A program made the position numbers and the translations under genes. Source: Closterium sp. NIES-65 (lineage: Eukaryota; Streptophyta; Zygnematophyceae; Desmidiales; Closteriaceae). From it: DNA of 64,000 bases. Below are positions 1 through 64,000 of this stretch, in pieces. The DNA lies in assembly GCA_948144175.1 (NCBI GenBank), contig CANXME010002414.1:1-64000 (forward strand), given 5' to 3'. The notes beneath the pieces were generated by a model that was not told the DNA's origin, did no database searches, and saw only the letters and a program-made list of their open reading frames with translations. The number at the start of each line of letters is the position of its first letter. The stretch's first letter is position 1.

Positions 1-1
1 C

Positions 2-3000
2 CCCACAAGCAGAGCGCTTGAGATGGTGAAGGCTATCATTGGGGAGCAAGGCAAGGTGTACCGAGGGGGGTATGAGGAGATAGTTCTCTCCACGCATGCC
101 CTGCAGCAGGTGGGCGCGGTTCTTGAGTCCATCATATAGTAGATCTGTATCCTGCGGCAGGTGAGTCTTTGTTGAGCCTCTGGTATCTTGAGCAACAGCC
201 TCAGTCTTTCTTGAGACTTAACTGGTACTGTAAACAGGGTGAGTGTTGAGTCAACTCCTCAGTCAACTGTGCTTAAGCCTCTGGTATCAGGATTCAGGAG
301 AGCGGAGCAGTACTGTAAGCAGGTCTATGCGTTTTGCATATTCTCATGCTCATTATTGCATTTGTGGTGTCCTAGAAACACTCCTTCACTCCTCGCCTCC
401 CTCCTCCCCTTCTCCCCCCATCAGGTGGCAGTAGCCTCGGATCACACCCATCTGTGGCACGCGGTGCAGCAGCCATTCTTTGTCTTCACGCCCTGCCAGA
501 GTACAGCCTTCCCCAAGTAAGCCCTGCCCCAGCACCGCCTCCCCCAAGTAAGCCCTACCTCAGCACCGCCTCCCCCAAGTACCCGTCACGTAGTGTGTCA
601 CCCTTTCCTAGTTAAGCTTACCTTAATGACTAGCTTCCACGCGCTTCACCTCTCTTACTGGTCTTTTTCAACCCGCCTGCCTCTCTGTCCCCCTGCCTGC
701 CTCTCTGTCCCCCTGCCTGCCTCTGTGCCCACATGCCTGCCTCTGTGCCCACATGCCTGCCTCTGTGCCCACATGCCTGCCTCTGTGCCCACATGCCTGC
801 CTCTGTGCCCACATGCCTGCCTCTGTGCCCACATGCCTGCCTCTGTGCCCACATGCCTGCCTCTGTGCCCACATGCCTGCCTCTCTGCCCACGTGCCTGC
901 CTCTGCCTCCATCCCCGCCTCTCCCCCCATGACTGCAGCAAGACACTCAACGGCACTCGACTCGCCCTCTTGACCAGGTGTGTCGCCGCCCTCTGTTCAA
1001 AGGCTCCTGCTTCCTCTGACCTGCTCTACCCACCTCTTTCAGTCGCACTCTTCCCTTCCTCATACAAGGCCACCAGAGAATACGGCCCACCTCCTGCTTG
1101 TTCTTTTCAGTCAGAGGCATCTCCAAGTGTCCCCACTATAAACTGCGGTGTCTCCGTGTGTATCCCCTTTCAGGCCCTATGGTGCCCAGCTTCCCATCAA
1201 GCTGATGCATTGTAAGTCAAATCAAGAGTTACTTGCGCCGTGATGAAGCCCTACTCTCCCCCTCTTCCCCTCCCCCCCCCCCCTTCGCCTCTTCCTCCTT
1301 CCACTTGCCGTGCATCCCCCCACAGGCCGTACGGAGTGGAGTTTCTGATCGAAACGGTGCTCATGCCCCATAGGTGGAACGAGTTTGATGCTGAGATGGC
1401 GGCTTCTTGGAAGGTTCGCTCCTACTCCCAGCCCAGCCATGGCTTTCTCTCGTACTTACGTGTGTTGAACCATTCTATCAGCGTGTGTATCCCGTCCTCT
1501 TCGCTTCCTTACTCTGTGTTCCTTACACCTTGCTTGCTCTCAATTTCGCGGCCTTCACGGTTCACTGTGTCCCTCACCTCTATTGCTGCGTCCAACCGGC
1601 CCTCTCCCATCAGGCCGTCTGCCTGGCAGTGGCGAACACGCCTCTCCGCGACTCTGACCTTCCCGCCTATCGCAAGGCCGTGCAGGACAGCATTCTCAGA
1701 ATGGCATACTACTGGTATGCTCAAGTGAAGCGTTCAGTACTGCCTATTACTAGTATGGCGACCCATTCATCCAACCATCCATCTATTCATCCGTCTTTCC
1801 TTCCATCCATCCATCCACCCACCCACCCATCCACCCAATCACCCGTTATCACCCTCAAGGTGCAACGTCATGCCCGATATGGCCATGTCATCCTCCTCAC
1901 CTCACCACACCCTGCTCTAATCTCTCTCACTCTCCCCCAATAACTCTCCCCCGAGTCCTTCCAATACGTCTCTCCCCCCTTACCCCCCATACCCCCCCCC
2001 CCACCCCCCTCAGGTACAACTTCATGCCCTTGGCGCGCGGCAAGGCCATGACAGGCCATGTCGTCACCCTCGATCCCCTCAGATTCCTCTCCCCTCTCTC
2101 CCTCTACCTATCTCCCCCTCATCCTTCCTGTCTTCGGACCCCCAACCCTCATCAAGTACAACTTCATGCCCTTGGTGTGCGGCACAGCTATGACAGGCCA
2201 CGTCATCGCTCTCGGCCTGCTCCTCTACCTATCTCCCCCAACCCCCCCTACGTCTCTTCCTCCCTGTCCCCATACCCCCCCCCCCCCCACCCCCTTCAGG
2301 TACAACTTCATGCCCTTGGCGCGCGGCACGACCATGACAGGCCATGTCGTCATGCTCGGTCTGCTCCAACCTCTCTCGCTCTCCACGCATAGCCCTCTCC
2401 GTCCTGTCCTCATGCCCCCATACCCCCCCTACCCCCCACACCACCCCCCTCAGGTACAACTTCATGCCATTGGCGCGCGGCACGGCCATGACGGGCCATG
2501 TCATCACGCTCGGTCTGCTCCCTAACCTAATACTCTCTCCCTCTCCGCGCATACTCCCACCCCCCCCTCAGGTACAACTTCATGCCCTTGGCACGCGGCA
2601 CAGCCATGACAGGCCACGTCATCACGCTCGGTCTGCTCCTCGCCATCGACCTGCACGCCTCCCAGCCCATCCCCCCTAACGTCCAGGTGCAGTGAACCTT
2701 GACGGTTGGTAGTACTAGTAGTCGACTTGATTGCAAAGCCACAGCCATGACAGGCCATGTCGTCACGCTCTGTGCTCCTCGCCATCGACCTGCACGCCTC
2801 CCAGCCCATCCCCCCTAGTGTCCAGGTGCGGTGCTGTGAGCCTTGATGAATGGTAGTTGCAGTCCAGTGCGATAGCCACAGCCATGACAGGCCATGTCGT
2901 CACGCTCGGCCTGCTCCTCGCCATCGACCTCCACGCCTCCAAACCCATTCCCCCTGCCGTCCAGGTGCACTGAACCTTGATGGCTGGTAGTGGTCGACTT

Positions 3001-4597
3001 GGGTGCCGAAGCCGCAGCTGGTTGGACTGCATGCATGCGTGTAAGACAGAGATGACTTTTGAGTCGACTCAAATGCCGAAGCCGCAGGTGGACTGCATGC
3101 ATGCGTGCGTGTAAGACAGAGGGGCTTTGGGGTTTGAGATGCATGCTTGATTTGAAGAATTGCCACAACTCACCCCGCTTGTCCTTCCTTCCCTTCCCTG
3201 CATAAGTGCCTCATTAACTCTCCATCCCCACTGTGCAGGTGGACTGGGAGTCCATCCTGTGCCCCTCAGCCGCTCTCTTCCTCCGCTCCGTCTCCTCCTG
3301 GCTCTACCCTTCTCTCAACCATGAGCCGCGCCTGAAGGAGCTTCTGAGTGTTGAAGATGCATTCCCTTCCCTGGGTGACGTGGTGGAAGTGCTTAGTGCT
3401 GCGGTGGGGGAGGAGGGAGAGGAGATTGGAAAGGAGAGGGGAGAGGATGCGGGTGAAGAGGGGGGAAAGGAGGGGGGAATGCACGGGAGAGAGGAAGGGG
3501 GAGAGGAGGAAAGACGAGGAAGCAGGGGTGGAAAGCAACGGCGTGGAGGGGCGTTGGAAGGAAGGGATTTGGTGTCAGGAGACGAGTTTAGTGAAGGGTC
3601 AAGCAGTGGGAGTAAGCAGATGGATGGGGTGCGTGAGAAGGAATTGGAAGGAAATGTGGCTGAGGTTAAGGCTAAGGGTGGGGAGGAGAGTGAGTCTGGG
3701 GAGAGGGAGGAGAGTGAGGGTGGGAAGAGGGGACGGAGAGGGGGACGCAGGGCACAGAGGGAGAAGGAAAGAAGGGAGAGGGAAGAGCGGTTGCGAGAGG
3801 AGAAGAGAGCAAGCGAAGGGAAAGGGGAGGAGCGAGTTAGTGAAGCCAGAACCGAGGGGAAAGAGGGGACGCAGGAGCTAGAGGAGGAGGCTGAGAGTGA
3901 GGGAGGTGGGATAGGAGGCAAAGGGAGAGGGTTGGCAGGCGGTGATAGGGAGAGGGGAGGGGAGTCAGATGAGGACGATAGGGCAGGAGACCGAGGTGGT
4001 GAGACAGCAGACCGAGGTGGTGAGACAGCAGTGGAGGAAGGGATGGAGAAGAGGGGGAGGAGAGGGAGGGGGCGGAGAGAGGAGAGGAGACTGAGGAGGG
4101 AGAAAGGGGAGGAACGAGAGGAAGAGGGGAGTGGTGTGGAGGAGCATGAGAACAAGGCAAAGGGCAAGGGGGACGTAAAGGTAATCACTGCGGGCACATC
4201 TACTATCAAGGACAATGAGAAGGACGTGGAGAGGGAGAAGGAGAGGGAGAAGGAGAAGGAGAAAGAGAGGGAGAAGGAGAAGGAGAGGGAGAAGGAGAAG
4301 GAGAAAGAGAGGGAGAAGGAGAAGGAGAGGGAGAGGGAGAAGAAGGAGAGGGAGAAGAAGGAGAAGGGACACAAGAGAGAGAAGATGGTAAAGGAGAAGG
4401 GAGAACAAGAGATGGCGGCAGCTGCAGAGTCCAGGCGGAATTCAGCCAAGGGGAGAGCTGGTGCCCGTCCAAAGAAGCGGTGGGGCAGCGATGTGACTCT
4501 CGAAGCAGCAGTGGGGCTGGTGAGTGGCAGTGGGGGGGTGAGTGGCAGTGGGGCTGGTGAGTGGCAGTGGGGGGGTGAGTGGCAGTGGGGCTGGTGA
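2..4597 (+). CDS. SRFR1-like protein, copy A (5' end outside window)
   Basis: This is the C-terminal half of a protein resembling plant SUPPRESSOR OF rps4-RLD1 (SRFR1), a TPR protein that restrains immune signalling in Arabidopsis; its role in an alga is unknown. Visible exons: 2-109, 425-516, 1326-1413, 1614-1714, 2572-2686 and 3239 onward, with phases that agree. Recognisable pieces are WHAVQQPFFV, HRWNEFDAEMAASW, LRMAYYWYNFMPLARG and VDWESILCPS...SSWLYPSL, in the family order. Exon lengths 88, 101 and 115 equal those of copy B at 5.6-19.3 kb, so the two are tandem paralogues. The last exon runs on into an unusual Glu/Lys/Arg-rich tail (about 3400-4460, EKEREK repeats) that copy B lacks. 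The exon may stop at a donor at 4519 rather than at the TGA ending at 4597. A 38-base exon-like piece at 1174-1211 does not fit the phase and is probably a decayed copy of the 1326 exon. Family call firm; 3' end uncertain. Confidence 0.8.
500..586 (+). repeat. Tandem donor-edge repeat after exon 425-516
   Basis: The 3' end of the exon plus its donor (CCCCAA|GTAAGCC) recurs about every 31 bases, giving potential donors at 517 and 548 and a weaker one (GTACCC) near 579. The unit is not a multiple of three, so choice of donor would change the frame. Confidence 0.6.
715..900. repeat. 20-bp minisatellite in intron
   Basis: About nine near-identical 20-base units containing TGCCTGCCTCTGTGCCCACA lie in the copy A intron 517-1325. 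All six frames stay open across the array because of its composition, not because it codes. The rest of this intron (586-714, 900-1173) shows nothing I can name. Confidence 0.85.
2014..2964 (+). repeat. Array of copies of the YNFMPLARG exon
   Basis: The intact 115-base exon (2572-2686) is preceded by four copies of its 5' part starting at 2014, 2157, 2300 and 2454, each beginning TACAACTTCATGCC, three of them after CAG. It is followed by two copies of its 3' part, about 2744-2826 and 2879-2964, each ending GTCCAG|GTG. Upstream copies keep the acceptor side and lose the donor side; downstream copies do the reverse. Only the exon at 2572 has both edges with matching phase. Confidence 0.85.
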
Positions 4598-4890: not shown

Positions 4891-5042
4891 AGCAACACAG
4901 CTGGGTCACTTATAGGAGTTCTCAAAGGGGGTTGCTTGCAGGCATTAAGAAGTTTAAGCAGTTTATGCTACACGTCCTTGTGCACAAAAATCACCTCATC
5001 TCATCTCATGTCTAATTCCTCAAACCTCATCGTTGCTTTCCA

Positions 5043-5397
5043 ACTGCATTCTGTCACACACACGGTCGAAAGCATTGAGGTGACTTTTGAGTCGACTCAA
5101 AAGTCAACTGCATTCTGTCACACACACGGTCGAAAGCATTGAGGTGACTTTTGAGTCGACTCAAAAGTCAACTGCATTCTGTCACACACACGGTCGAAAG
5201 CATTGAGGTGACTTTTGAGTCGACTCAAAAGTCAACTGCATTCTGTCACACACACGGTCGAAAGCATTGAGGTGACTTTTGAGTCGACTCAAAAGTCAAC
5301 TGCATTCTGTCACACACACGGTCGAAAGCATTGAGGTGACTTTTGAGTCGACTCAAAAGTCAACTGCATTCTGTCACACACACGGTCGAAAGCATTG
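5043..5397. repeat. 64-bp tandem array carrying a 24-bp palindrome in each unit
   Basis: Unit starts fall at 5043, 5107, 5171, 5235, 5299 and 5363, a strict 64-base period. Five units contain a perfect 24-base palindrome with core TTTTGAGTCGACTCAAAA (5082-5105, 5146-5169, 5210-5233, 5274-5297, 5338-5361). Units are nearly identical, so there are no variable spacers. The array sits just upstream of the first recognised exon of SRFR1 copy B. The stretch 4890-5043 holds nothing recognisable. Confidence 0.93.
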
Positions 5398-5513
5398 CCG
5401 CATTTCCACTTCCCTGCACTCTTATTCCACACTGCTTGATAATTCCCTTGCTTCACTGCGTTTCCCTTGTCCTTCATTTCCGTTACCTCACGCGTCCTGT
5501 CAGGCTCAAGCAG

Positions 5514-5545
5514 GCAACTACGAGGCTGCAATTGAAGCGTGTGCT
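5514..5545 (+). repeat. Upstream copy of the first copy B exon
   Basis: After CCTGTCAG the sequence repeats the AQAGNYEAAIEA coding segment found at 5639-5683, then diverges before a donor. It is an acceptor-side exon copy. The segment 5700-5900 between this and the next exon is a TTCCC-rich simple repeat, and 5900-6150 shows nothing recognisable apart from an acceptor-side copy of the next exon at 6151-6205. Confidence 0.7.
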
Positions 5546-5638
5546 TCCCTGCACTCCTCTTCCACACGGCTTGATGATTCCCTTACTTCACTGCGTTTCC
5601 CTTGACCCTCATATTCATTGCCTCGTGCTTCCTGTCAG

Positions 5639-8600
5639 GCGCAAGCAGGCAACTACGAGGCTGCAATTGAAGCATTTGCACAGGTTACCTTCCCTCCCCT
5701 CTCCTTTCCTCCCTGCCACTTCGCCTCCCTCTCCTTCCCTTTCCATTCCCATTTCCCATTCCTGCCGTTCCCTTTCCCTTCCCTTCCCGTTCCCTTCCCT
5801 CCCCCTCCCTTCCCTTTCCCTTCCGTTCCCTTCCCTTCTTTTTCCTTCCCTTCCTCTTCCCTTCCCTTCCCTTCCCTTCCCTCCATTCCCTGCGCACTGT
5901 CTTGTCTCTCGATCCGTCTTCACACAAGTCATGTGCATGTTATCCTCATTACAGCAGTCTTCAACAGCATCTCTAACCCTCAGTTGTCTATGCCGTCTTG
6001 TATTTTCAACCTGACATTTCTCTTCTCGAGCTTTACTTTAGCGTGGCTGACAGTTAACAGTTTCATCAGCAAGAATCCATCGATATTCTGAAGTAGCCCT
6101 CCTCACCTTCCCCCTGCCGCTCCCCTCCTCTGTACATTGAATCCCACCAGCTGGAGGAGCAGGGAGAGGAGGAGTTGGCAGGGCTGCTGGCATGTAGGGG
6201 CCATTGCTGCCCCCTCATATCCTCCCCTCACTTCCTCCCCTCACTTCCTCCCCTCACCTGCTCCCCGACTTGCTGTCCTCCCCTCCAATGCCACCAGCTG
6301 GAGGAGCAGGGCGAGGAGGAGTCTGCAGGGCTGCTGGCGTGGAGGGGGGCGGCCAACTCCCTCACAGGCCGCCACACGCAGGCCATCACTGACCTCACCA
6401 AGGTATGTGACTGCAGCGAGGTGACTGCTTAGGATATTGACATCACTGACCTCACCAAGGTATGTGACTGCAGCGAGGTGACTGCTTAGGATATTGACAT
6501 CACTGACCTCACCAAGGTGCGACACTGACCTCACCAAGGTGCGACAATGACCTCACCAAGGTGCGACTCTGACCTCACCAAGGTGCGACACTGACCTCAC
6601 CAAGGTGCGACACTGACCTCACCAAGGTGCGACACTGACCTCACCAAGGTGCGACACTGACCTCACCAAGGTGCGACACTGACCTCACCAAGGTGCGACA
6701 CTGACCTCACCAAGGTGCGTCACCGACCTCACCAAGGTGCGACACCGACCTCACCAAGGTGCGACACTGACCTCACCAAGGTGCGACTCTGACCTCACCA
6801 AGGTGCGACTCTGACCTCACCAAGGTGCGACACTGACCTCACCAAGGTGCGACACTGACCTCACCAAGGTGCGACACTGACCTCACCAAGGTGCGTCACC
6901 GACCTCACCAAGGTGCGACACCGACCTCACCAAGGTGCATCACTGTAGAAAGGCAACACTTGTACCGCTCCGCTCCTCTCCTCTTACCATGCCAAGCCTC
7001 GCCCATCCATACTTAACTCCGCTTGCCTTTCTTGCTCTGCTCTTGGGCTGGACGTGCCATTTTTCAGGCCTTGAAGATCATTCCATCGGATCTGCCCATC
7101 CACCAGCAACTGCTGCAGCACCGCGCCGTCTCTCACCTCAGGCTGCAACGGTTCTCTGAGGTCAGGCTGGGTGGGGCTGTGATGTGCATAAGGGAGCAGA
7201 GGGGTTGGAGAGCAGGTGTGCATGGGGATGCGACGATGAAGGAGCAGAGAGGGGCTGTACTGTACTGTACAGCAGCAGAGGGCAGCAGCAGGAGGGTGTA
7301 CATAGCCAATCTATTTGGTATCAAACACAGCCAAACACAGCCAAACACAGCCAGGACATTATCTGACTCTGCAGCCGCTTCAGCTTTCCAATAGCCCTTC
7401 GTGGGTGTAATAAATTAGTAATCACGCCGGCCACACCTTGCTGCACTCGCCCATCAGTGTAGCTCCTAGCAGGTCAGAAGGAGTCTGTGGTCGTGAGGGC
7501 AGTGAGTTCCACTGTGTCCGATGCGTACTGCTATGTGCGACGCGTGTGTGCAACCCATCCCACCCATCCCATGCTGCTGTGTGCCATGCATGTGTGCAAC
7601 CCATGCCATGCCACGCCATGCCATGCCATGGTGCTGTGCGGTGGCAGGCTATAGCGGACTGGACTACCATGATTGCTGCCGACCCGAGCAATGTCGCTGC
7701 CATTCGTGAGAGAGGTGAGTCGTTGAAACAGCAGAACCATATGTCATGCTGGCTTACAGAAATCCCGACAGTATCTGAACCATTCACACACGCCATGCAA
7801 TGCACTTATGCCGTGCTTTCACGGTATGTGTGCACCCATCTTATCCACCCGCTGTCCCATGCACCCATCCATCTTATTTCATGCATCCCATCTCATCCAC
7901 CACCACCCATGCCATCCAATGCACCACCCATGCCATCCCATGCAACCCCCCACCCACCCATCCCTACGTGGCAGGCATGGCTCGTGTGAACAGCAGGGCT
8001 TTCAAGGACGCCATTCCGGACCTCACCACCGCACTGCACCACTCTCCACACGAGCACACCCTCCGCCTCTTCCTGGTACATTACATCTCCCAAGGACCCA
8101 TGGCATGGCATGGCATAGCATGGCATGGCATAGCATGGCATGGCATCGCAGGCAGGGCATGCATTGCAGGCTATTGCATCTCCCAAGGACCCATAGCATG
8201 GCGTGGCGTGGCATGGCATAGCATGGCATGGTGTGGCGTGGCATGGCATGGAGCGGAGCATCCTGCTGCTCTGTGCGGAGTGCTGAGTCCTGACTGGTTG
8301 GTGGGAGTTTTATCCCACCCCACCCCACCCCACCCCACCCCACTGCCCAAGGGCAACACACTAGTATCCACATGGGAATGCAGTTGGAGGCAGCTTTTGA
8401 TCCACCCCTAAAGCCCCCGCTTCCCCAGGGCTACACGCTATCCCACATGGGGTGTAAGTGGGAGGTGTAGCAGGCTGTGGTGCAAGCGGAACCACAGCGG
8501 GGAAAAGGGGGGAGAGATCCTAACCACTTCTCTCCTCCCTTGCACGTTCTCGCTTCCCCGCTTCCTCAGGGCAACACATTGTACCACATGGGGCGACGGT

Positions 8601-11600
8601 CAGAGTCAGCGGCAACGCCGCAGGTGGTGGTGCGTGCGGATCCACAAAAGGTGTAGGGGATGGTGACCCACTTACTTACTCTTCTCTCCTTCCTTGCACC
8701 CTCCCACCAAACCCTCTCCCCCCTCCCGCCAAATCCTCAGGGCAACGCCTTATACCACATGGGGCGATGGTCCGAAGCAGCAGCAGCGGGGGGAGGCGTG
8801 GCGCGTGCTCACTTCTCTCCCTACTGTTATCATTCCCCTCTGCTCTTCCCCAGGGCAACGCCTTATACTACATGGGGCGGCGGTCAGAGGCAGCAGCAGC
8901 GCTGCAGGCCGTGGTGCGTGCAGAGCCGCAGCGGGGGGGGGGCGTGGCGCGTGCTCACTTCTCTCAACTGTTATCATCCCCCTCCCACCTAATCTTCAGG
9001 GCAACGCCTTGTACCACATGGGCCGCCGGTCAGAGGCAGCAGCAGCGCTGCAGACCGTGGTGCAAGCAGAGCCGCAGCGGGGGGAGGCGTGGCGCGTGCT
9101 GGGGGACGTGCGGAGGGACATGGGGGAAGTGGGGGAGGCGGAGAGGTGCTATGAGCATGCGCTTAAAGAGTTCCCCAGGTGAGGTGCTATGGGCATGCGC
9201 TCAAGGCGTTCCCCAGGTGAGGTGCTATGGGCATGCGCTCAAGGCGTTCCCCAGGTGAGGTGCTATGGGCATGCGCTCAAGGCGTTCCCCAGGTGAGGTG
9301 CTATGGGCATGCGCTCAAGGCGTTCCCCAGGTGAGGTGCTATGGGCATGCGCTCAAGGCGTTCCCCAGGTGAGGTGCTATGGGCATGCGCTCAAGGCGTT
9401 CCCCAGGTGAGGTGCTATGGGCATGCGCTCAAGGCGTTCCCCAGGTGAGGTGCTATGGGCATGCGCTCAAGGCGTTCCCCAGGTGAGGTGCTATGGGCAT
9501 GCGCTCAAGGCGTTCCCCAGGTGAGGTGCTATGGGCATGCGCTCAAGGCGTTCCCCAGGTGAGGTGCTATGGGCATGCGCTCAAGGCGTTCCCCAGGTGA
9601 GGTGCTATGGGCATGCGCTCAAGGCGTTTCCCAGGTGAGGTGCTATGGGCATGCGCTCAAGGCGTTCCCCAGGTGAGATGGATGGAGGCATGTAGGCGTG
9701 TGATGGGGAACAGGCGGATGGGCGTGGGGGAGAGGGGAGAAGCGGAGAGGTGCTATGAGAATGCGAGAAGCTCAGGTTCTATGGGTGGAGTCTTGGAGGC
9801 ATGGCGTGTGCTGCAAACGTACGGAGGGATATGGGAGGAGGACAAGGCAGAGAGGTGTTATATGAGAATGTGCTCACTGAATGGCAGGCAGAAGCACAAA
9901 TGAGGGGAGTCTATGTGCTGCATACCTCCTTGCAAAGCCTCTTTGCTCCACCCATTAACTTCCCTCCCAGCAGTCACTTCTTCTCCACCCGCCCTTTCAT
10001 GAATGAACGCCTTGTGTGCTGTGCACCGATGCGCCTTCCCTCCCTCCCCCCCCCCCGTCAACGCATGGTACTTTAGTGATATGCCCACGCTGCACTCGTG
10101 GGTGAAGCTGCTGCAATCCACCGGCAGGCACAGGTGGGTGCAGAGCGGTTCAGATGGGTAGAAGAGGCATGTGCTTGTGAGCCGTCGAGGTGTCATGCAG
10201 TTATTTCTAACATGTTGCTGGTTGTGCTGCCCATGCCACTTTCGCACTGCTGGTTGCGTTGCTGATTTTGCCGCGGATTGTGTCAATCGTTTCTTGTATC
10301 GCCCTTTGTGTCTCAAACGGTCCATTGATATAGGCGGCAGTATACAGGGTTCTCTCTTTGCGCCTCTCTCTCTTGGTGTCTCTCCTTGTGTGCTGCAAGC
10401 CAGGGAGGTAATCAGCCTGATCTCAAAGTACCTCCCCTACCACCCCACTAACGTGGAGCTGCGCTATTGGTTGGCATCATCGCACCACTCCTCGGCTGAC
10501 TTTCCCAAAGCTGTGAGTCGAGCAGTTGATCGCATCAGCAAGTTGAATCCAAGTCATATTGAAATCCCTTTTGAGAATTCTCAACTGTGAGTCGAGTAGT
10601 TGATCGGATCAGCACGTTGAATGCAAGCCAACCGCATCCGCTCTGGCTGGTGCTTTTGAGGCTCTTCCAGTCTAGCCTTGACTCTGGCGTGTTTTTTTTT
10701 TTAGAATTCTCAAAATGTCACCTTGCTTTTGCGACTCTTCCAGTCTAGCCTTTGCTCTGGCGTCTGACATAGCATTACTTTGTTGGTTTAGACGCCATGC
10801 CTTGGGCTGCCATGCCACCTTTCAGACGACTTTTGAGTCGACTCAAAAGTCACCTTGCTCTTGAGGCTCTTCCAGTCTAGCCTTGACTCTGGCTGGCGTC
10901 GGACATAGCATTACTTTGTTGCAGGGCTGCCATGCCACCATTCAGTCGCCTCAAGGCTTGGTCATGGTTTAGCGGTATTACTCAGTTGATCTTCCCTTTG
11001 GGCTTTAGTCACATTTTTTAGGCGCCTCAATTACAAAGGTAACCTAGTGTATCCCCTCACCTCAGCAAGTTTGACAAATGCACCTGCCTGGTTGTGGTGA
11101 TGGTGGCAGGTTGACGCGTATAATCACGTGCTTAAGATGCAGCCACGTGACTACAGCGAGCGCCAGAGCCATGACATGGCATTCTACCAGGTGTGATTGT
11201 ATGGGGAGGAGCCAGCAAATGAGATAGGGTTTTTTTTCTGTGAGATTGCTGCAGCAAGGAGAGCATGTCCGCTGACTCATGCCTGCTGCATGGGTTTGTA
11301 CATGTCTAACTCCCTGCACCCCATACGCCATGTCCAACTCCCTGCACCCCATACGCCATGTCCAACTCCCTGCACCCCATACGCCATGTCTAACTCCCTG
11401 CACCCCATGCGCCATGCCTCCCTGCCTGCACCAATGCTCCATATCTCCCTGCGTGCACCTGCATGGATCACATGACAGAGGGAGGTGGCAATCTACATGG
11501 CAGCATGCATGGAGCAGCCTTTGGACCAATTCAGCTTGGCCCCTGTCTCCCTGCATGTCTCCCTGCGTGCACCTCATGCATGCTGCATGCATGCATCACA

Positions 11601-14600
11601 TCACATGAATCACAGAGGGAGGTGGCAATTTACATGGCCACATGCATGGAGCAGCCTTTGGACCGATTCAGCATCGACGACCACTTCCTTCCTCTCTTCA
11701 AGGTGACTCTAACAAGAATAGCTTCAGGTTGTTTTTGAGACGTCTCAAGAATAACCTCATTACACGCAGCATGCATGGAGCAGCCTTTGGACCAATTCAG
11801 CATCGACGACCACTTCCTTCCTCTCTTCAAGATGACTCTAACAAGAATAGCTTCAGTTTGACTCTATTTCATTCAACTCACTCGCTTTCTTTAGGCACCA
11901 CTGCCTCCCCTCGATTTCTTTGAGGCCTCAACACTGGCCAAAACCTGAAGAGGCGACAAATTCATGGCATCTCCCCACTCCTCTCCCCATTCCTCTCTCC
12001 ACTCCTCCCCCACCCCTCTCCCCACTCCTCCCACTCCCCTTCCCACTCCTCTCCCCACTCCTCTCCCCGTTCCCCTCCCCACTCCACTCCCGTTCCCTCT
12101 CTCCTCAACCATCCCTCCACCAGGAGAGCTGGGCATACCGCTATCCACGAGATGCGCTGCTCCAGGCAGGCTACAAGCGCAAGGCCCTTCTGTCATTGCC
12201 TCGGTCTCCCAAGTCCTCTCCTCACTGCCCTCCCCACTCCTGATTCCGCCATCCCCTCACCAGGAGAGCTGGACGTACCGCTATCCACCAGATTCCCTGC
12301 TGCGGGCAGGCTACGAGCCCATGGCTCTGCCGCCATCTGGAGGACGGGGCAACGGCAGCACATGCAGTGGGGAGGGCGAGGGGGCAAGGCTGGGTGCTGC
12401 CCACGTGGAGGCTGTTGATTGGGCGGACCGGCTGGGCAGCCTGATTCAGTACCACTGTGCTGGCTTCCTCAATAACGGGCGGCAGGTGAGGGGTGGGGGG
12501 CTTTAGGCTGGCTGCCTAGCAGACGGCAGGTGAGGGGTGGGGGGCTTTAGGCTGGCTGCCTAGCAGACGGCAGGTGAGGGGTGGGGGGCTTTAGGCTGGC
12601 TGCCTAGCAGACGGCAGGTGAGGGGTGGGGGGCTTTAGGCTGGCTGCCTAGCAGACGGCAGGTGGGGGGTGGGGGGCTTTAGGCTGGCTGCCTAGCAGAC
12701 GGCAGGTGAGGGGTGGGGGGCTTTAGGCTGGCTGCCTAGCAGACGGCAGGTGAGGGGTGGGGGGCTTTAGGCTGGCTGCCTAGCAGACGGCAGGTGAGGG
12801 GTGGGGGGCTTTAGGCTGGCTGCCTAGCAGACGGCAGGTGAGGGGTGGGGGGCTTTAGGCTGGCTGCCTAGCAGACGGCAGGTGAGGGGTGGGGGGCTTT
12901 AGGCTGGCTGCCTAGCAGACGGCAGGTGAGGGGTGGGGGGCTTTAGGCTGGCTGCCTAGCAGACGGCAGGTGAGGGGTGGGGGGCTTTAGGCTGGCTGCC
13001 TAGCAGACGGCAGGTGAGGGATGAGACGGAGTGAGGTCCAGGAGGACCCGGTCTCTTCTTGGTGGGCTTTTGCACCCACTCAGCAGTCCTTATGGCATGT
13101 GCATGTGCATGTGGATTGGCCGCATGTCCATGTGCATGTGCACTCGCTTGAATGATTGAAAGCGCCCGTAGCTGAACCCCATGGCCCGTGGCTTGGGTCC
13201 CATTCAGACCCTCTCTCCTCCCCTCGCCAATCATACCAATCATCCCAAGCATCTTACTCTTTGTGTTGCACACAGCAAAGGGCAGCAGGGCTAGCCATGC
13301 TGGCCATCATGCAGGCCCTCAGGCAGGCCCTCAGGCACGAGTGGGTCCCATTCAGACACTCTCCCACTCCCCTCTGCAATCACACCAATCATCTCATTGT
13401 ATCCCCATTGCACCAAATGCAATGCACACAGCAAAGGGCAGCAGGGCTAGCCATGCTGGCCATCATGCACGCACTCAGGCACGAGTGGGCCCGCCTTCTC
13501 GCCTCCTCGTCTCGCCCAGCCAGTGCCAGCAGCGGCGCTGACGTGGCGCTGACGTGGCGTGACGTGTACTCCATGGCTGCCACGTGGCGGCAGGTAGCGG
13601 AACCAACGGATAAAGTGATGTGGTCCGATCGATACACGTGAGTGATGTGCTGATTAACTAACCAACATATGTTCGTGCTGGTGACCCAATGTAGAGAGTA
13701 ACAACCTAACATTTGAAAACATTAACCTCTCGAATTGTGCGCTAACAGATTGCTTCGGCTTCAGCCAGTGCTTTTTCCCAATGTGCAATCCTTCTTGACT
13801 GTGACGTCCTTCTTGACTGTGACGTCCTTCTTGACTGTGACGTCCTTCTTGACTGTGACGTCCTTCTTGACTGTGACGTCCTTCTTGACTGTGACGTCCT
13901 TCTTGACTGTGACGTCCTCCGTGGGTGTGCTGGGGTGCGGTGGGTGAGTGGCAGGGAGAGTGGGTTCAACAAGGGGGTCATCTCCAGCACCCCCATCTCA
14001 TACGGCCAATCGCTTAACTTCAAATACGGCGCATACGCCGACAGGTACAGTGGGCTAACGTGTCTTGAGGCGCCTCAAAATTATGGCGCATACGCGGACA
14101 GGTACAGCAGGCTAACATCTCCTAAGAAATCAGTGTTTCAAAATCAGCGTATATGCCTTTGGGTGGCATGCACGCAGGACTGTGTAACGGCTGTGTCTGT
14201 TTTTTGAGACATCCAGCATATATGTCTAAGGGATGTAGGTGTGACTACAGGGAGTGACTGATGGAGTTGCACATGTGCAGCAGCTGCTGCAGAATCCCGA
14301 ACGCTCTGATGTCAAGAGCTTATTTATCATCTGTAAATGCATATGCGTGAGTGTCTGTGTGTGCCTGTGCGTGCATCAGGGCGTTTGTGATTCTGAAGCA
14401 GCTGCTGCTGGAGAGAGGAGTGGTGAAGGCGCAGGATGGGCTTGTGGAGGTTCCACTCTCCAAGGCCGTGCTCAGAAAGGTACGTCAGCACTGCAGACGT
14501 GTTTTAAGTCAACTCAAAAGCACGACTCATTCGAGTCAACTCCAATCACGCAGGATGGGCTGGTGGAGGTTCCACTCTCCAAGGCCGTGCTCAGAGAGGT

Positions 14601-17600
14601 CTGTGAGCATGGCTGCGTTTTGACTCGTCTCACAGCTCAAAACATGAGGTGCCTCACAACTGAAAACTTGAGACATCTCATCATAACTGGGTGAAGGCGC
14701 AGGATGGGCTTGTAGAGATTCCACTCTCCAAGACAGGGCTCAGAAAGGTGTGTGAGCACTGGCAGACTCAAGGACACTCTGCACTCTTGAAGCTTCAAGT
14801 ATGCTCATGCCTGCTTTACGTTTATCAAGCAAACTATTTTACCCCACCCTTCACCGCATCCCGTTCATCCCATCCCATCCCACACCAGGCGCGCAAGGCC
14901 AGCACCCACACGCAGCTAGCCGCGGCAGTCAGCCAACCCTCCTTCTACACACCGCTGCTCATCCCCAGCTCCGCACAGCCCGGGTGCGCACTGACCTCCG
15001 TGCTTGCACCGCGTCCCATCCATCCCATCCCACACCAGGCGCGCAAGGCCAGCACCCACACGCTCATCCCCAGCTCCGCACAGCCCGGGTATGCACTGAC
15101 CTTCACCTCACCGCGTCCCATCCATCCCATCCCACACCAGGCGCGCAAGGCCAGCACCCACACGCAGCTAGCCGCGGCAGTCGGCCAACCCTCCTTCTAC
15201 ACGCCGTTGCTCATCCCCAGCTCCGCACAGCCCGGGTGCGCACTGACCTCCGTGCTTGCACCGCGTCCCATCCATCCCATCCCACACCAGGCGCGCAAGG
15301 CCAGCACCCACACGCAGCTAGCCGCGGCAGTCGGCCAACCCTCCTTCTACACGCCGTTGCTCATCCCCAGCTCCGCACAGCCCGGGTGCGCACTTACCTC
15401 CGTGCTTGCAGCCATGATCCCTGCTGGAGTTTCGTAGTGCCTTGCCTTTTAGCACGTGCAGCGTTTGAGTTGCTTTAAAGCCCTCTCCGTTGCACAGGTT
15501 TGGGTCTCTGTTTGCCTCTGGTGTGGTGTGTGTATTTCTGCTTGCGGGCCCGTTTAAGCATGCCCATGTGATGGTTAACATTCTCCCGTGTGGGTATGTT
15601 TGAATGCTTCTTTGTTTGTACTTCCATGAATATGTGTGTTATGTGTGCAGGAAGCTTATTGAAGGCACACGAATATCAGTGTTTCCTAATCCCGAGTAAG
15701 CTCGACGTGATCCTTACGCCTCGATACTAGCCTCTTTCGCACCATCGCATCTCTCACACCTCCCTCACATCACTCACTCCCCTCTCCTACCCAACCATCG
15801 CCTCCCCTCGTCTCAACAATCTCTCCCAAGCATACCTCCTCCCTCCTTCCATCCCCAGATCCCTTTCCGCCTCCCCCAACCCCCAGCTCGCCACCAAGCC
15901 CATGCTCAATTTCCTTCAGAATCCTACCCCTCCTACCCCTCCCCTTTCTTCCTTTCCCTGTCCGTGCCTCCTTCCTTCCCCCTTGCCAGCTTGCCCGAGC
16001 CCGAGCTAGCAATAGACCTCATGCTCAAGCCCCTTTCCTTATCTCATCTCTCGTCTACCCCTTGTTTGAAGGAGTGTTTTGAGACGTCTCAAAACACATG
16101 CTCAAGCCCCTTTCCTTATCTCATTTCTCGTCTACCCCTCCCTCCAACCTCCTTCCTCCTCGCCTGTCCCCTGCAGCTGACTTTTGGGTCGACCCAAAAG
16201 TCACTGACCCCGAGCTAGCAATCAAGCTCATGCTAAAGCCCCATCCTCCAATCCAACCTCGTCTCCCCCACTCCCCCTCCCACTCCCGCCAACCTCCTTC
16301 CTCCTCGCCTGTCCCGTGCAGCTCGCCCGAGCCTGAGTTAGCAATCGAGCTCATGCTCAAGCCCCATCGCTATCTCCTCTCCCCCCTCCCCTCCCTCCAA
16401 CCCCCTTCCTCCTCTTCTCGCGCTGTCCCCTGCAGCTCGCCCGAGCCCGAGCTAGCAATCGAGCTCATGCTCAAGCCGGAGCGGTGGAGGGAGTATGAGA
16501 GGGAGATGGACGCTGCATGGCAGGTGAGACCGTGAGAGCAAGTGCTCCTCACACACACATACTCCGCCCTTCCTCCTCGCCAGCCCACCTGAGCCCGAGC
16601 TAGCAATCGAGCTCATGCTCAAGCCGGCGCGGTGGAGGGAGTATGAGAGTGAGATGGACGCCGCATGGCAGGTGAGACCGTGAGAGCAAGTGCTCACACA
16701 TAGAAACTCACCACAGCATTTTTGAGGCGCCTCAAAAATCGGCAGGTGAGTGAGAGCAAGTGCTCCTCACACACACATACTCCGTCCTTCTTCCTCGCCA
16801 GCCCACCCGAGCCCGATCTAGCAATCGAGCTCATGCTCAAGCCGGAGCGGTGGAGGGAGTATGAGAGTGAGATGGATGCGGTGTGGCAGGTGAGACCGTG
16901 AGAGCAAGTGCTCACACATATATACTCACCACAGCATTTTTGAGGCGCCTCAAAAATCGGCAGGTGAGTGAGAGCAAGTGCTCACACACACACAGACTCC
17001 GTCCTTCTTCCTCGCCAGCCCACCCGAGCCCGAGCTAGCGATCGAGCTCATGCTCAAGCCGGAGCGGTGGAGGGAGTATGAGAGGGAGATGGACGCTGCA
17101 TGGCAGGTGAGTGCGAGCAAGTGCTCATACAGACTCATCACCGCATGCGCGCTCATTCATGCTTGTCTGAATCTCCTCATTCTCCCCGATCCCATCTCCT
17201 TCTCCCACCTCACTTCACTGCTCTTACATCCCTCACGCTGCGCTCCCATCCCTCTCTACTGCCCTGCTTCCCTCACGCCCGCTCTGACGCTCTGCTCCCC
17301 TCACGCCCCGTGTCCAACCGGCCCTCTCCCATCAGGCCATCTGCATCGCAGTGGCGAATGCATCTCCGCAATTGGTGGGACTTTTGAAAGCTCTCTCACA
17401 TACCATCTACTCTTCGCCTATCTCTCCCATCAGGCCATCCGCCTGGCAGTGGTGAACACGTCTCTCCGCGACTCTGACTTCCCGGCCTACCGCAAGGCAG
17501 TTCAGGACAGCGTACTCAGAATGGCCTATTACTGGTATGTGCTGCTACTGGTATGTGCTGCTACTGGTATGTGCTGCTACTGGTATGTGCTGCTACTGGT

Positions 17601-24541: not shown

Positions 24542-24549
24542 GTATGTGG

Positions 24550-25088: not shown

Positions 25089-29843
<4,755 letters not shown>

Positions 29844-29849
29844 TCTAGT

Positions 29850-29970
29850 TTTGAGTCGACTCAAAGCGCGAGTGCGCGGCGAGCGCGTATGTGTACAACA
29901 CAAAGGAGGAGATTGACACGTTCATTGTGGGGATGAAGGACACCATTGACTTTTTGTCAAATTCTCCTGA
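29850..29970 (+). repeat. Palindrome and duplicated end of SufS
   Basis: Just after the stop codon at 29841-29843 is a TCGA-centred palindrome (29850-29865). It is followed by a second copy of the last ~100 coding bases (GCGTATGTGTACAACACAAA...GACACCATTGACTT) with frame-shifting differences. It is a non-coding duplicate, like those inside the introns. Confidence 0.85.
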
Positions 29971-31278: not shown

Positions 31279-31279
31279 G

Positions 31280-45446: not shown

Positions 45447-45458
45447 CGTTTAAATATA
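45447..45458 (-). promoter_or_regulatory. Probable TATA box of cysteine-rich gene 2
   Basis: Minus-strand TATATTTAAACG about 155 bases before the ATG, conserved with copy 1. Confidence 0.55.
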
Positions 45459-48142: not shown

Positions 48143-48411
48143 AGGGTGGCGATCCACGAGGCGATGCAGCAGCAGGCCATGCGTCTCACTGTGTGCTTCG
48201 CCTCTGCCTGTGCGCCATGCGTCCCACAGGAGTGGCGATCCACGAGGCGATGCAGCAGCAGGCCATCAGCATCGCCAAGGCGGGTATCACCACCCACCTC
48301 CCCAGCCTGCCCTCGGGGTGATACTTCTCATATTATGCCTCGGAATGATCGATGCGTACATCACATCCCTGTCTCCCTCCTCTCCGCCGTCCCTTCTTAT
48401 CCACCTCACAG

Positions 48412-50945: not shown

Positions 50946-51017
50946 GTCGGTGTAGTTTAGTGGTTAGAATCCCACGTTGTGGCCGTGGAGACCTGGGCTC
51001 GAATCCCAGCACCGACA
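50946..51017 (+). tRNA. tRNA-His (GTG)
   Basis: 72-base cloverleaf without intron. The acceptor stem GTCGGTG/CACCGAC pairs perfectly, the anticodon loop is TTGTGGC with anticodon GTG, and the T arm has GGGCTCGAATCCC. A-box (TAGTTTAGTGG) and B-box (GCTCGAATCCC) are good. TTTT follows within a few bases as Pol III terminator. It looks functional. Confidence 0.97.
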
Positions 51018-53554: not shown

Positions 53555-53627
53555 GTCTGAACCCGGAATCGAACCGGAGACCTCCAGTGTGTGAGACTGG
53601 CGTGATAACCGACTACACCATCCAGAC
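53555..53627 (-). tRNA. tRNA-Val (CAC)
   Basis: 73-base minus-strand cloverleaf. Acceptor stem GTCTGGA/TTCAGAC has one G-T pair, the anticodon arm is CCAGT-CTCACAC-ACTGG with anticodon CAC, and the T arm is CCGGTTCGATTCCGG. A TTTTTT run follows 13 bases downstream as terminator. It looks functional. Confidence 0.96.
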
Positions 53628-53986: not shown

Positions 53987-56900
53987 ATGGCTTCCATGGC
54001 TGCCACGGCGGTGGCTGATTGCCGCACATTGCGGTGTATAGGTAGGTTACGATGACGCGCCGCCGCATGTCATGTACTCGCGCCGCGTTCTATGTAGCAT
54101 CGCAGCCGCATTGGCACCTGCAATTGTCGCTCGCAATAATCGCTCCGCTGAGATCCACGTCGCTTCGTGGCTTCACGCGGGTTCATTCGTTCGCCATTTC
54201 CGCCCATCTCGCCATGCCCCCGACTCTTTATCTCATTCCGCGAATTCCGCGTACTTCGCCATCCCCGTTCGTACATTGTCGCCCAGGCTCAACTCCCTCG
54301 TCGCAATGCCGTGCGACGCCCGTGGCCTCGCTGCCTGCTCGTCGCATCGCTTCGCGCGCGCACTGCTCGCTCGCTAGCGTCGCACACATCGCCTCGTGGC
54401 AACGCTGCGACTCGCGCCGAGCGACTCATCTACGGTAAGCCGCAGACGCTGCCACTCTTCAACGTAACCTTCGAACTACGAGAGGCGAAAGGGATGAACT
54501 GGACGGAAGCAGCAAAGACGGCAATGCTTTGTGAAAAGGTACCGGCTGGCGGGTTTTTAGCTTCTCGCGGATTCGAAACGAGTTTCTCGAATCTGTATTC
54601 TCTCATGGGCCTGCACCCCGCTCCCCAACGCGTCACCCTCCCAACCACACACTCTCTTTCCCTCCTATGCACCCCCACCCTCTCACCTTTCCCCTATCCT
54701 ACCCACATGCATCTCCGGCGGGGCAGCGTTGCGCGGCCCGGGGCGGTGCGGGCGGCAGCGGACGAGGAGGTGGAGGAGGAGCTCATGATGATCGAGGAGA
54801 GCGCGGTGAGTGCAGCCCTGGGCGCGGTGAGGAGAGCGCGGTGAGTGGCGGGACCAGTGCACCCGTGCTTGCCAGGGGAGGGTGTGGCGCTTGGCGAGCT
54901 TGCAACACAAAGGCAGCACGGCAGGGTTTAAGACTTGCATAATAACTGGGCCTCCATTCTTCAGCAGGGTTTAGGCTTGTATCTGGCATCACCAACGCAC
55001 AGGCAACGCTTGGCACTCCCCTCGCTCTCGCCTCCTTCCATCCACCACCCTCCCTCCCTCTCCCTCGTTCAACTCCTTCACTCTGCTGCTCACTCACCTC
55101 CCTTCACCGCCCTGGCACTCCTCGTATTCCCAACCCTGCCACACTACCATGATTCACTGCGGTGCAACGCGGTGCAGATGGAGCGCATGGAGAAGACGTT
55201 GGACAGCGTGAGGGGCAACTTCAACACGGTCAGAACGGGGCGAGCCAGCCCCTCCCTGCTGGACCGCATCGAGGTGAGCCCTGCTGGACCGCATCGAGGT
55301 GAGCCCTGCTGGACCGCATCGAGGTGAGCCCTGCTGGACCGCATCGAGGTGAGCCCTGCTGGACCGCATCGAGGTGAGCCCTGCTGGACCGCATCGAGGT
55401 GAGCCCTGCTGGACCGCATCGAGGTGAGCCCTGCTGGACCGCATCGAGGTGAGCCCTGCTGGACCGCATCGAGGTGAGCCCTGCTGGACCGCATCGAGGT
55501 GAGCCCCTCCCGCTCCTTACGCCTTCCTACCTCTCACTCCCACTCTTGGTCTCGTTCTCCTCTTCCCTGTGCTGTGCCTCTTTGCACCTACAATCTGGCT
55601 TCTGCCTTCAGTTGCTTCTGTGCCTTGCTGGCTGCTCTATGTGCCACGTGTACCCCTCCCATCGCCACGTGTGTCCCTCCCATGGCCTGCGGTACCCCCA
55701 GGTGGAGTATTACGGCGCGAGTGTGATTCTAAAGAGCATCGCTCAGATCGCTGCCCCTGACGGCTCCATGCTGCTCGTCACGCCCTTTGACAAATCCAGG
55801 TGCCATTTCTTCAAACCCCTGCTTTTGAGTCGACTCAAAAGCAAATCCAGGTGCCATTTCTTCAAACCCCTGCTTTTGAGTCGACTCAAAAGCAAATCCA
55901 GGTGCCATTTCTTCAAACCCCTGCTTTTGAGTCGACTCAAAAGCAAATCCAGGTGCCATTTCTTCAAACCCCTCCTCCTCCACCCTCCCCTCTCCAACCC
56001 CCCACTTCTCACTTTGCCACAATTTCTGCAGCCGTCCTAAGCACTTCAGCACACTCCCCCACACATTTCCCCCACATCCCCCCACTCCCTCCCCTTTCTA
56101 CCCAGCATCCCGTCCATAGAGAAGGCGATTATGAAGTCAGACGTGGACCTCACACCCCCCGCACCTTCCCCACCTGCCTCGCATCCCTCCTCCCCTCCTC
56201 TAACTCCCCTCTCTCCCTCCCCTACCCCCCCCCCCTCCCATCCGCCCAGCATCCCGTCCATCGAGAAGGCGATCATGAAGTCAGACGTGGGCCTCACGCC
56301 CTCGTCTGACGGCAACGTCATCCGCCTCTCCATCCCGCAGCTCACCGCCGAGCGCCGCAAGGTACGAGCGTGCAAGGTGGTTGCTGTCAGCAGCTGAAAG
56401 GCTTGTCACGCCCTCCTCGGACGGCAACGTCATCCGCCTCTCCATCCCGCAGCTCACCGCCGAGCGCCGCAAGGTGCTGTGCTGTGCTGTGCTGTGCTTT
56501 GCTGCCTCCCAAGGGCCACATACGCACTACATACAGACTCTCTACACCCTGACATCCTCCGTTATATGTTCAGTAAAAATCTGAGACAGTGGGAATGAGG
56601 TAGCGTAATAATAGGCAGTAGCATAGACAACCGAAACGTGGCTGAGGGAGGGCAGTGGTGGGGGGATGGTGAGAAGGAGCAGGAGATGAGAGGTGGTTGC
56701 TGTTGCCAGCCGATGGACTTGTGATGCCATGCCTCTGCTTCTATGCTCGCTCACCCTGAGATACCTCCCAGCCTCCTCCCATCCTCTCTCCGACCACCTC
56801 TCAAGATTGGCTTCTCGAAATTACCGCTCCAAAATTCCTCTTCTCTCCCTTCCGCCTTGCCATGGCATGGAGTGGCATAGCATTGCACATGCATGTCGTG

Positions 56901-62000: not shown

Positions 62001-63509
62001 ACGTTTTCTTCCCTGGCTCCCCCGGCTCCCTGCGCCCCCTCCGCCCACCCCATCCCCCTGAGGGCGAGGAGCTTGGCGGAGTTCTCATCGAGGGGCGTCA
62101 CCACAAACACGTCTGCCTGCCCGTACCCCTCAACCCCCACCAGATTCGCCGCTATGGATGGCCCGGTCAGCTCAAACGTTCGCAGCTGCCCGACAAGGCA
62201 CAGCGCCATGGAGTCCTCCGGCCAGGGCAGCTCAAAATCTGCAGTAGGCGCTGCTGCTTCTGCTGCTGCTACTGTTGACAGCCCTGGTGTGGGGGTCTGG
62301 ACGAGGTATTGTATGGGAAATGCAGGGGGGGTGAGAAAGGATGGATGGAGAGGGGAGAGGTGGATGGGGTGGTGTGAGAGATCGACGGTGAGTGTGTGGT
62401 AGGAACGTGGCGTCCCTTGCTCTGCTTGCAGGTGGCACAAGCAGAGCACACAAGCAACGGGTGTGCGCCGCTTGCTCTGCTCTGCTTGCTAACGCTCTTC
62501 TCTCCCTCGCACACTCGTCCCTGCTCCGGCACCTTCCACCAGTCGACTTGCATCCCCTCACCGCATGTCACCGCACCTCACCTCACCGCACCTCACCTCA
62601 CCACACTTCACCTCACCTCACCTCACCTCACCTCACCGCACCTCACCTCACCGCACCTCACCTCACCACACCTCACCTCACCTCACCTCACCTCACCTCA
62701 CCTCACCTCACCTCACCGCACCTCACCTCACCTCACCTCACCTCACCTCACCTCACCTCACCGCACCTCACCTCACCTCACCTCACCTCACCGCACCTCA
62801 CCTCACCTCACCTCACCTCACCTCACCACACCTCACCTCACCGCACCTCACCTCACCTCACCGCACCTCACCTCACCTCACCTCACCTCACCGCACCTCA
62901 ACTCACCGCACCTCACCTCACCTCACCTCACCACACCTCACCTCACCTCACCGCACCTCACCTCACCTCACCGCACCTCATCTCACCTCCGTGTGAAGAC
63001 CCGTGTGGGGCAGGGCAGCATGGGTCACCAGCGATGGTTGCTGGCGGTGCCATGGGTGGGGGGAAGGCGAGAGCGGCGTGGGGGGGTGGGCGTTGAAGGG
63101 AGACAGATACGAGGATTGGGGTGGAGGATATAGGAGGGTGCAGCGAAGGGGAAGGGGTGAAGGGTATGTCATGTGGGACGTGGGAGGGTGGGGGGAGGGA
63201 AACAGCAGTAGGGGTACAAAAGGCGACAGGCACGTTGATACAGCACACACAACCCCTCTCTTCGCCCTTCCCCTCCAAATCGCCCGCTCCCCTCACCTCG
63301 CCCTCTGTCTGCGCGCCCCCGTGCGCGTGCAGCCACGGCGGCATCACGCTCGTGAACGCCAGCAGCGGCGTCAGCGCCAACACCGCCACCACCGCCACTA
63401 CCGCCACCCGCCGCGCCGCGCCCCTCCCCCCGCCTCCCCCGCTCCCCGGACCCCCGCTTCCCCTGCTGCTGGGCTGATCCGCGCCCGCGCTGCTTCCCCC
63501 CGCGCCCAT
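59045..63509 (-). CDS. DUF7796-like type II membrane protein
   Basis: Minus-strand gene. The best in-phase model is 63509-63297, 62230-61560, 61366-61033, 60850-60375, 60167-59837, 59605-59045, giving 861 residues. I chose the ATG at 63509 because it precedes a single hydrophobic segment (about residues 35-53, VAVVAVVAVLALTPLLAF), a signal anchor; reading frame continues upstream without ATG, so another first exon is possible. The lumenal part matches a plant family I know as DUF7796: MALCLVGQLRTFELTGPSI, DVFVVTPLDENS, RYKWLMKARPDSFW, DFGGVNDRLAVVP, HFPFCLVSHHQFFKM and GDYCRPCQHEPP. These proteins are thought to be Golgi/ER glycosyltransferase-like; activity is unproven. A Gln/Glu repeat (about 60670-60770) and Gly-rich stretch (59340-59470) are lineage insertions. 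The second exon could instead begin at 62283. Confidence 0.75.
59685..59785 (-). repeat. Decayed acceptor-side copy of the last exon
   Basis: On the minus strand the sequence GGAGGAACC...GCAGCTGCCGTGGATCTGG repeats, with gaps, the start of the exon beginning at 59605, and lies upstream of it in transcript direction. The exon-edge rule therefore holds on the minus strand too. Confidence 0.65.
62570..62995. repeat. CCTCA/CCGCA pentamer satellite
   Basis: About 80 pentamer units in the first intron of the DUF7796-like gene. On the coding (minus) strand this reads GTGAGGTGAGG, a continuous run of donor-like GTGAG. Confidence 0.93.
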
Positions 63510-64000
63510 CCTGCTTCCCGCGCGGCTGCGCAACTGAAGCGCTCCCCCGACTCCGATACCCCCTGCGCTCCCGCGATAGCCCTCCCGCCCGCGCACTACT
63601 GCCGCCGGCTCCGCCAATCCCCGATCCGCCGCGCCCCGCCTGCGAACCTCGGAGTCCCGCGTCGCCGTGCGACGAGGCGACTGCGATTGGACAGGCGACG
63701 GCGGCGACAGTAACGGCGACGCTGCGAAACCTTCGCGGCCTCTCGCCACGCGACGACCTGCGACGGACTACAACCGCGAGGATGCGCGGGGGGAAGCGGA
63801 GAGGGGAGAAGAGGGAGTTGCGGACGGGCCGGGCGGAAAATGCGGAGAGAAAAAGGGCGCGACAGGGTTGGAAAGAGAGAGCTCACGTGATCGGGCGACG
63901 GATTGGCGGAGTGGCGGCGGGGGAAGGGGGAGGTCATGGCGGGCGCGGAGTCATGGCGCGCTGGATACGACGCTGGGCGAAGAAAGGCTGGCTGGGGTGT
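63510..64000. other. 5' region of the DUF7796-like gene
   Basis: GC-rich. On the minus strand an ATG at 63937 starts a 17-codon stretch ending in a good donor (GATCAC|GTGAGC), a possible upstream exon, but its phase does not fit the next open stretch. On the plus strand an ATG at 63936 runs off the window end. Neither is called. Confidence 0.35.

Follow-up and report, generated by a model that had tools for sequence, protein, structure and literature searches.

The window analysed here comprises 64,000 bp of contig CANXME010002414.1 from Closterium sp. NIES-65 and is part of an 874-Mb assembly of 2400 contigs from a plant-like nuclear genome. It contains genes A and B, a cysteine desulfurase gene (SufS), a recycling factor gene (RRF), an MCM5-like scrap and a minus-strand DUF7796-like gene, around whose exons pieces of exon sequence occur again in the introns; an 18-bp palindrome core, TTTTGAGNNNNCTCAAAA, is also recurrent in the window introns. 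The names SRFR1 (genes A and B) and MCM5 are labels taken from an initial annotation of this DNA. Gene models were derived from reading the sequence and then checked for open joined frames, which are open throughout in three of them (A, SufS and RRF); the frame of gene B is open from 5639 to the exon ending at 13637, and each later exon is individually open. SufS matches chloroplast cysteine desulfurase (E 1.3e-184) and RRF the chloroplast recycling factor (E 2.1e-77), both over nearly the full length, with the larger gaps of the SufS alignment placed within exons by our own reading. In Pfam, a piece of gene B matched TPR repeats, whereas residues 1-221 of gene A had no match. Because the frames are open and SufS and RRF match their chloroplast homologues, the exon models used for the copy counts are probably correct.

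Each of the 43 exons in A, B, SufS, RRF and the MCM5-like scrap was checked against the introns on either side of it. The score threshold was set for each intron at one above the 99th of 100 dinucleotide-shuffled versions, with a minimum of 14. Up to 6 nt per end may be missing from a copy called whole, and 5504-5544 and 11479-11560 are thus near-whole; within whole-exon copies, the main exon was the analyst's choice. The comparison gave 80 direct copies, diverged to varying degrees: 40 with the donor side of the exon downstream, 21 with the acceptor side upstream and 7 whole or near-whole copies upstream, the others being internal (8 upstream, 3 downstream) or donor-side upstream (1), with no acceptor-side copy downstream. 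Counted by exon-side (n=41), there were 14 downstream donor, 13 upstream acceptor, 4 upstream whole, 7 upstream internal, 2 downstream internal and 1 upstream donor. The fixed polarity described in the initial annotation, acceptor-side copies before an exon and donor-side copies after it, therefore holds for these four genes and the scrap, where one copy lies on the contrary side (15062-15088, within a whole-exon tandem array). It does not extend to the DUF7796-like gene, which had been named as a further example and whose three copies are all internal, none reaching an edge. Both exons that had been singled out as two-sided are so: 2572-2686 has four acceptor-side copies upstream and two donor-side copies downstream, and RRF exon 56250-56361 has an upstream copy at 56106-56157 and a downstream one at 56406-56473. 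The observation of polarised exon-edge copies is thus largely real, and partly confirmed in its original extent.

The polarity was read in the four gene models, the scrap, the minus-strand gene and one paralogous locus, and the wider sampling covered this locus, a second contig (C481) and 19 scattered 10-kb stretches. The structures of the window, with their differences from C481, are as follows.

2014..2686, plus strand: gene A, four acceptor-side copies (2014-2080, 2156-2225, 2300-2388, 2454-2521) upstream of exon 2572-2686; covered by a Tandem Repeats Finder (TRF) array at 1992-2529, period 144.
2572..2964, plus strand: gene A exon 2572-2686 and downstream donor-side copies 2740-2825 and 2877-2964; TRF period 139.
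3005..3123: palindrome 3057 flanked by two direct copies of about 47 bp, in a gene A intron.
5041..5397: tandem array of 64-bp units with the palindrome; five palindromes here versus two in C481.
5504..5683, plus strand: gene B, exon 5639-5683 copied upstream (nt 1-41 of 45; scored whole).
6151..6945, plus strand: gene B exon 6298-6402, preceded by an acceptor-side copy and followed by donor-side arrays (57 bp; 22 bp x20); copy number different in C481.
8352..9677, plus strand: gene B exon 9000-9178, upstream acceptor-side copies and a downstream 38-bp donor-side array.
11479..11856, plus strand: gene B exon 11616-11702, near-whole copy upstream, palindrome 11733, donor-side copy downstream.
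12124..13020, plus strand: gene B exon 12264-12485, upstream acceptor-side copy and a downstream 44-bp donor-spanning array, which is 352 bp shorter in C481.
14028..14116, plus strand: donor edge of the exon ending at 14044, then palindrome 14063, then a donor-side copy.
14380..14747, plus strand: exon 14380-14479, two donor-side copies and palindrome 14502; one unit fewer in C481.
14889..15385, plus strand: whole-exon tandem array containing the sole upstream donor-side copy.
15994..17106, plus strand: acceptor-side and whole-exon copies with palindromes 16077, 16182, 16720 and 16938.
17434..17775, plus strand: exon 17434-17534 with a 16-bp donor-spanning array.
18011..18148: palindrome 18063 flanked by two copies of about 46 bp.
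18344..18947, plus strand: exon 18344-18458 with a 38-bp donor-spanning array; 418 bp shorter in C481.
26233..26943, plus strand: SufS exon 26490-26872, upstream acceptor-side copy and a donor-side copy beyond palindrome 26878.
27211..27820, plus strand: SufS exon 27211-27429, followed by three donor-side copies; C481 is 876 bp (6 x 146) longer.
29548..29970, plus strand: last exon of SufS, 29673-29843, upstream acceptor-side copy and a copy of the 3' end beyond palindrome 29849.
48146..48283, plus strand: MCM5-like scrap, upstream acceptor-side copy.
55178..55506, plus strand: RRF exon 55178-55273, 25-bp donor-spanning array with 100% identical copies; 100 bp shorter in C481.
55702..55976, plus strand: RRF exon 55702-55799, its donor spanned by three 51-bp units that carry the palindrome.
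56106..56473, plus strand: RRF exon 56250-56361, upstream copy (exon nt 1-52) and downstream copy (nt 45-112).

The paralogous locus, present in the same form in two contigs (L007 and L008) and with its main exon picked by the analyst, has its copies on the same sides as the window genes. Acceptor-side copies lie upstream at 2516-2593, 2662-2731 and 355-396 (the last beginning at exon nt 5), a downstream copy at 638-692 ends at the donor, and another at 1658-1709 covers nt 48-99 of 115 and ends where the exon match ends. Three weak internal matches with scores of 17-20 also exceeded the threshold there (A4/A5 pieces at 1704-1737, 2211-2235 and 2221-2280).

The copies are direct and adjacent, as in tandem duplication across splice sites, and in 16 of the 35 tandem arrays outside exons the unit includes the splice junction. 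These arrays come from 36 that were hand-listed from the TRF table, leaving aside short-period rows, overlapping rows and those inside the long last exon of gene A (about 3409-4367). Here it is proposed, with a probability of roughly 0.78, that the polarity is the footprint of head-to-tail duplications straddling splice junctions, in which the innermost sites are kept in use and a part of which palindrome insertion would cause. The units would be direct, head-to-tail and about 16-220 bp long. Duplication of a unit that starts in the intron and ends in the exon would bring the acceptor-side fragment first, upstream of the intact exon, and one that starts in the exon and ends in the intron would leave its spare donor-side copy downstream; selection would retain only those duplications whose innermost pair of splice sites still yields the right mRNA. 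The polarity follows because, with the innermost sites in use, a straddling unit can put its spare copy only on that side. The geometry of head-to-tail duplication suffices for the two-sided pattern, for which the initial annotation knew of no described mechanism, while its proposal that introns grow by repeated local duplication across splice junctions is upheld, the innermost copy keeping the protein intact in the gene models.

Several results count against this reading. Ten inverted matches exceeded the same threshold, eight of them at 67-85% identity and two higher (89% over 28 nt at gene B exon 14380, 90% over 20 nt at SufS exon 28970), which gives an indication of the chance level. The 11 internal copies of the 43 exons and the 3 of the DUF7796-like gene touch no exon edge. 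In addition, the 16/35 arrays spanning an exon edge compare with 7.5 expected under random placement in collapsed introns (P 0.0004), and the spanning arrays with units shorter than 60 bp are all at donors (9/9), so that geometry alone is an incomplete explanation. This excess and the donor bias would fit a splicing- or transcription-linked process directing duplications to donor sites, as would the motif AGGTRAG, found in 6/91 minisatellite units (all six in the window) versus 0.9% of background segments, and the location of the window palindrome loci with up to one mismatch, 15/15 of which fall within A, B, SufS or RRF or immediately next to them. Such targeting is nevertheless considered improbable, since selection against the competing AG sites that short acceptor duplications would create gives an equal bias. 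Either donors are favoured or acceptor duplications are purged via competing AG sites; the data fit both. Beside these arrays, an 18-bp unit is repeated about seven times at 13789-13918, within what is probably a coding exon of gene B, where C481 is 36 bp (two units) shorter.

C481 is collinear with the window, with 95.9-99.8% identity in the listed blocks, and the window is partly not simply alignable at 47-54 kb. It carries most of the window structures with different copy numbers, so that copy number varies between allele-like contigs as in minisatellites, and many of the length differences are located on arrays, several of which differ by whole units (12480-13020, 18449-18947, 27311-27587 and others). 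The presence of shared structures in two contigs speaks against an assembly artefact. Identical copies (100%) in some arrays are what an artefact could produce; imperfect copies common to two separate contigs, arrays differing by whole units and copy divergence of varying degree make this explanation very improbable.

Part of the duplications is probably caused by an event linked to the palindrome, which is new relative to the earlier reading and less expected than the polarity. The exact core TTTTGAGNNNNCTCAAAA has 30,327 sites in the 874 Mb, versus 4 for the control read backwards. Its centre types in the genome include TCGA (13,080), GCGC (5,851) and ACGT (5,047), and an AATT centre was found in 2/50 listed core sites and in 6 rows of the arm comparison. 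By eye, the arms beyond the core vary with the centre type and end unequally on the two sides with the centre intact; at 18063 the arm recurs in head-to-tail order. Of the 5,569 occurrences of the half arm GGTGACTTTTGAGTC, 3,607 have an intact partner attached. TCGA-type arms with a spacer of 1-30 bp are rare (682, and 8/10 of those displayed are compound palindromes), hence no palindrome interior of up to 30 bp was seen, longer interiors not having been searched. A symmetric arm variant with GGG arms, TTTTGGGNNNNCCCAAAA, was close to background (16 sites versus 9 in the control) and was discarded. Palindromes 26878, 28198 and 55823-55925 sit within introns of SufS and RRF, and the proteins are intact across them. 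The TCGA form had no match in viral contigs and was found in only four stretches of prokaryote genome contigs; four longer palindrome strings had no match in the open-licence papers searched, where three hits shared only a 12-letter piece, and no described element resembling the palindrome was found in those papers or is known to us. Two further observations are a different palindrome, TAAGCGCATGCGCTTA, present twice in the window (30129 and 36647), and an array of 27-bp period made from palindrome arms in contig C43 (1010328-1011047).

The palindromes are flanked by target copies. In a two-sided flank test, sequence ending the left flank had to reappear beyond the palindrome and sequence opening the right flank ahead of it, both with one period, and the gap window was broader on the right side; it replaced a first test based on the single best alignment, whose null was 10-21%. 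The test was passed by 45/51 rows (19/21 in the window, 9/12 in contig C6, 4/4 in the scattered stretches and 13/14 in C481), corresponding to 32/38 loci after arrays were collapsed by hand and palindromes with two mismatches were excluded (including 10569, 16182, 48594, L021 and L032). The C6 rows are 12 stand-alone sites among 30 listed for that contig, and the C481 rows start at about 57 kb of its analysed stretch. Against a rate of 0.25, the 32/38 loci have a binomial P of 2.8e-14. At 25/26 chosen sites target copies are 20-112 bp long, with a median of 43, and inserts measure 18-58 bp; as the 26 sites were picked for visible duplication, 25/26 is not a rate.

Filled and empty forms of these sites were compared between the two contigs at 19 aligned loci (up to two mismatches, and leaving aside 48594, at whose position the two contigs fail to align): 13 palindromes are shared and 6 differ, three being present only in the window (14502, 18063, 55823) and three only in C481 (h57631, h57712 and h59489, the first two being parts of one compound insertion). 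C481 lacks the palindrome at 18063 and 55823 and carries the target there exactly once, and at the places of h59489 and h57631/57712 the window likewise has a single target copy without palindrome. At 14502, C481 has a single target copy without palindrome and the window copies are 92% alike, and this difference may be a loss in C481. Anatomy, filled and empty sites, and the genome-wide number of palindrome insertions are thus direct observations, and the insertion process looks recent.

The insertion would place the palindrome in a target of 20-112 bp that becomes duplicated, giving the order target, palindrome, target. One nick in each strand, at a distance of 20-112 nt from each other, would open a staggered break, whose ends would both be filled in, duplicating the target, and a short palindromic DNA with trimmed outer ends would be ligated between the filled ends. 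Slippage or unequal exchange may afterwards extend some units into long arrays, and selection would eliminate duplications that alter the mRNA. The source of the palindrome could be a very small transposable element, a reverse-transcription product or a repair by-product, and the remaining copies would be plain duplications without palindrome. In the laboratory, according to the available part of PMC5730883, breaks with 46-nt overhangs yield tandem duplications; these resemble the present ones in measuring tens of bp and in the filling of both protruding ends, and that part of the source does not mention a conserved palindrome between the copies, such as is present here.

A simpler account is that plain tandem duplication, by slippage, unequal exchange or staggered-break fill-in, explains all exon-edge copies and that the palindrome is a bystander in unstable introns. 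In its favour, by hand count about 7/28 exon-sides have a palindrome at the joint and the majority (about 21/28) do not, and 219-293 of 1000 random points passed the two-sided test in four controls, so that direct repeats occur near 22-29% of random points too. Further figures that weigh on the proposed role of the palindrome are the 6/51 palindrome rows lacking flanking copies in that test and the empty sites, which could also come from a deletion between two copies. Set against the bystander account are the target copies that flank the palindrome at 32/38 loci and the palindrome-free sites compared, which are also without the extra copy, and this account is rated unlikely.

Insertion of the palindrome as a new kind of mobile DNA, about 18-36 bp long, with four or more centre types, sites numbering in the tens of thousands, a duplicated target of 20-112 bp and recent activity, is given about an even chance. 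The likeness to miniature inverted-repeat transposable elements (MITEs) and other short inverted-repeat transposons, which are palindromic, dispersed, variable in presence and flanked by a duplicated target, lies in a dispersed palindrome that is present or absent between contigs, has inverted-repeat ends and duplicates its target. It differs from them in its 18-bp core, with no interior of up to 30 bp seen, and in its long, variable target duplication instead of a short one of fixed length. The palindrome may instead be what remains of an inverted-end transposable element, either a very short MITE or the joined ends of a larger element, that makes unusually long target duplications; this is a tentative alternative of fairly low probability. 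It would account for arms that exceed the core and vary with the centre type, for the half arms that run into an intact partner and for presence or absence between contigs; it sits poorly with the rarity of spaced TCGA-type arms, within the spacers searched, and with a target duplication that varies between sites, as cut-and-paste elements make short ones of fixed length.

A variable target duplication is found in LINE (long interspersed nuclear element) and Penelope-like insertions, and the palindrome could also come from twin priming, a form of target-primed reverse transcription in which both nicked strands would copy a short RNA whose 5' end becomes the palindrome centre. The variable target duplication, variable outer ends and constant centre fit this, as does the head-to-tail arm at 18063. 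The measured inserts of 25 sites contain only the palindrome and short arms, with no element body or tail, and twin priming is regarded as doubtful.

Introner elements are numerous short insertions in introns, and the palindromes share with them the many short intronic insertions. They differ in lying within introns that already exist and in having a core without an AG/GT splice pair at its ends; no insertion supplying its own splice sites was found among palindromes 26878, 28198 and 55823-55925. There was no sign of recent intron gain among 38 introns (identity of donor and acceptor contexts 0.256 versus 0.263 permuted, P 0.73), and a new intron as outcome of duplication was not found among them. 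As to minisatellites (variable-number tandem repeats), many of the arrays are ordinary variable tandem repeats, with the difference that their units often cross a splice junction or hold the palindrome. In the potato gene for RNA-dependent RNA polymerase, PMC4974935 describes a single direct duplication crossing the acceptor, which left an exon fragment inside the intron. The duplicated unit crosses the intron-exon boundary in both cases; in potato one event made a new intron, whereas here many events per gene enlarge existing introns.

For the study of intron growth and of the origin of tandem duplications, the many tagged events could make duplications datable, mappable and comparable with their empty sites in large number. 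To our knowledge, no transposable element is as small as this palindrome would be if it is a mobile entity. Its long, variable target duplication would then suggest a break of unusual geometry. If the mobile-DNA interpretation is right, the palindrome would be a chief driver of intron growth and of duplications at exon edges in this genome, and it might create introns at targets that include AGGT.

Apart from the arrays, the two contigs differ by larger blocks. About 8 kb of C481 (47933-55930 of its analysed stretch) is absent from the window near 51131, about 2.2 kb of the window (51349-53552) is not in C481, and a purine-rich block of about 1.4 kb (21747-23189) is also absent in C481. The window further contains long open frames at 31382-36029, which we take to resemble a Copia-type retrotransposon polyprotein, and tRNA genes at 50946-51017 (plus strand) and 53554-53627 (minus strand).

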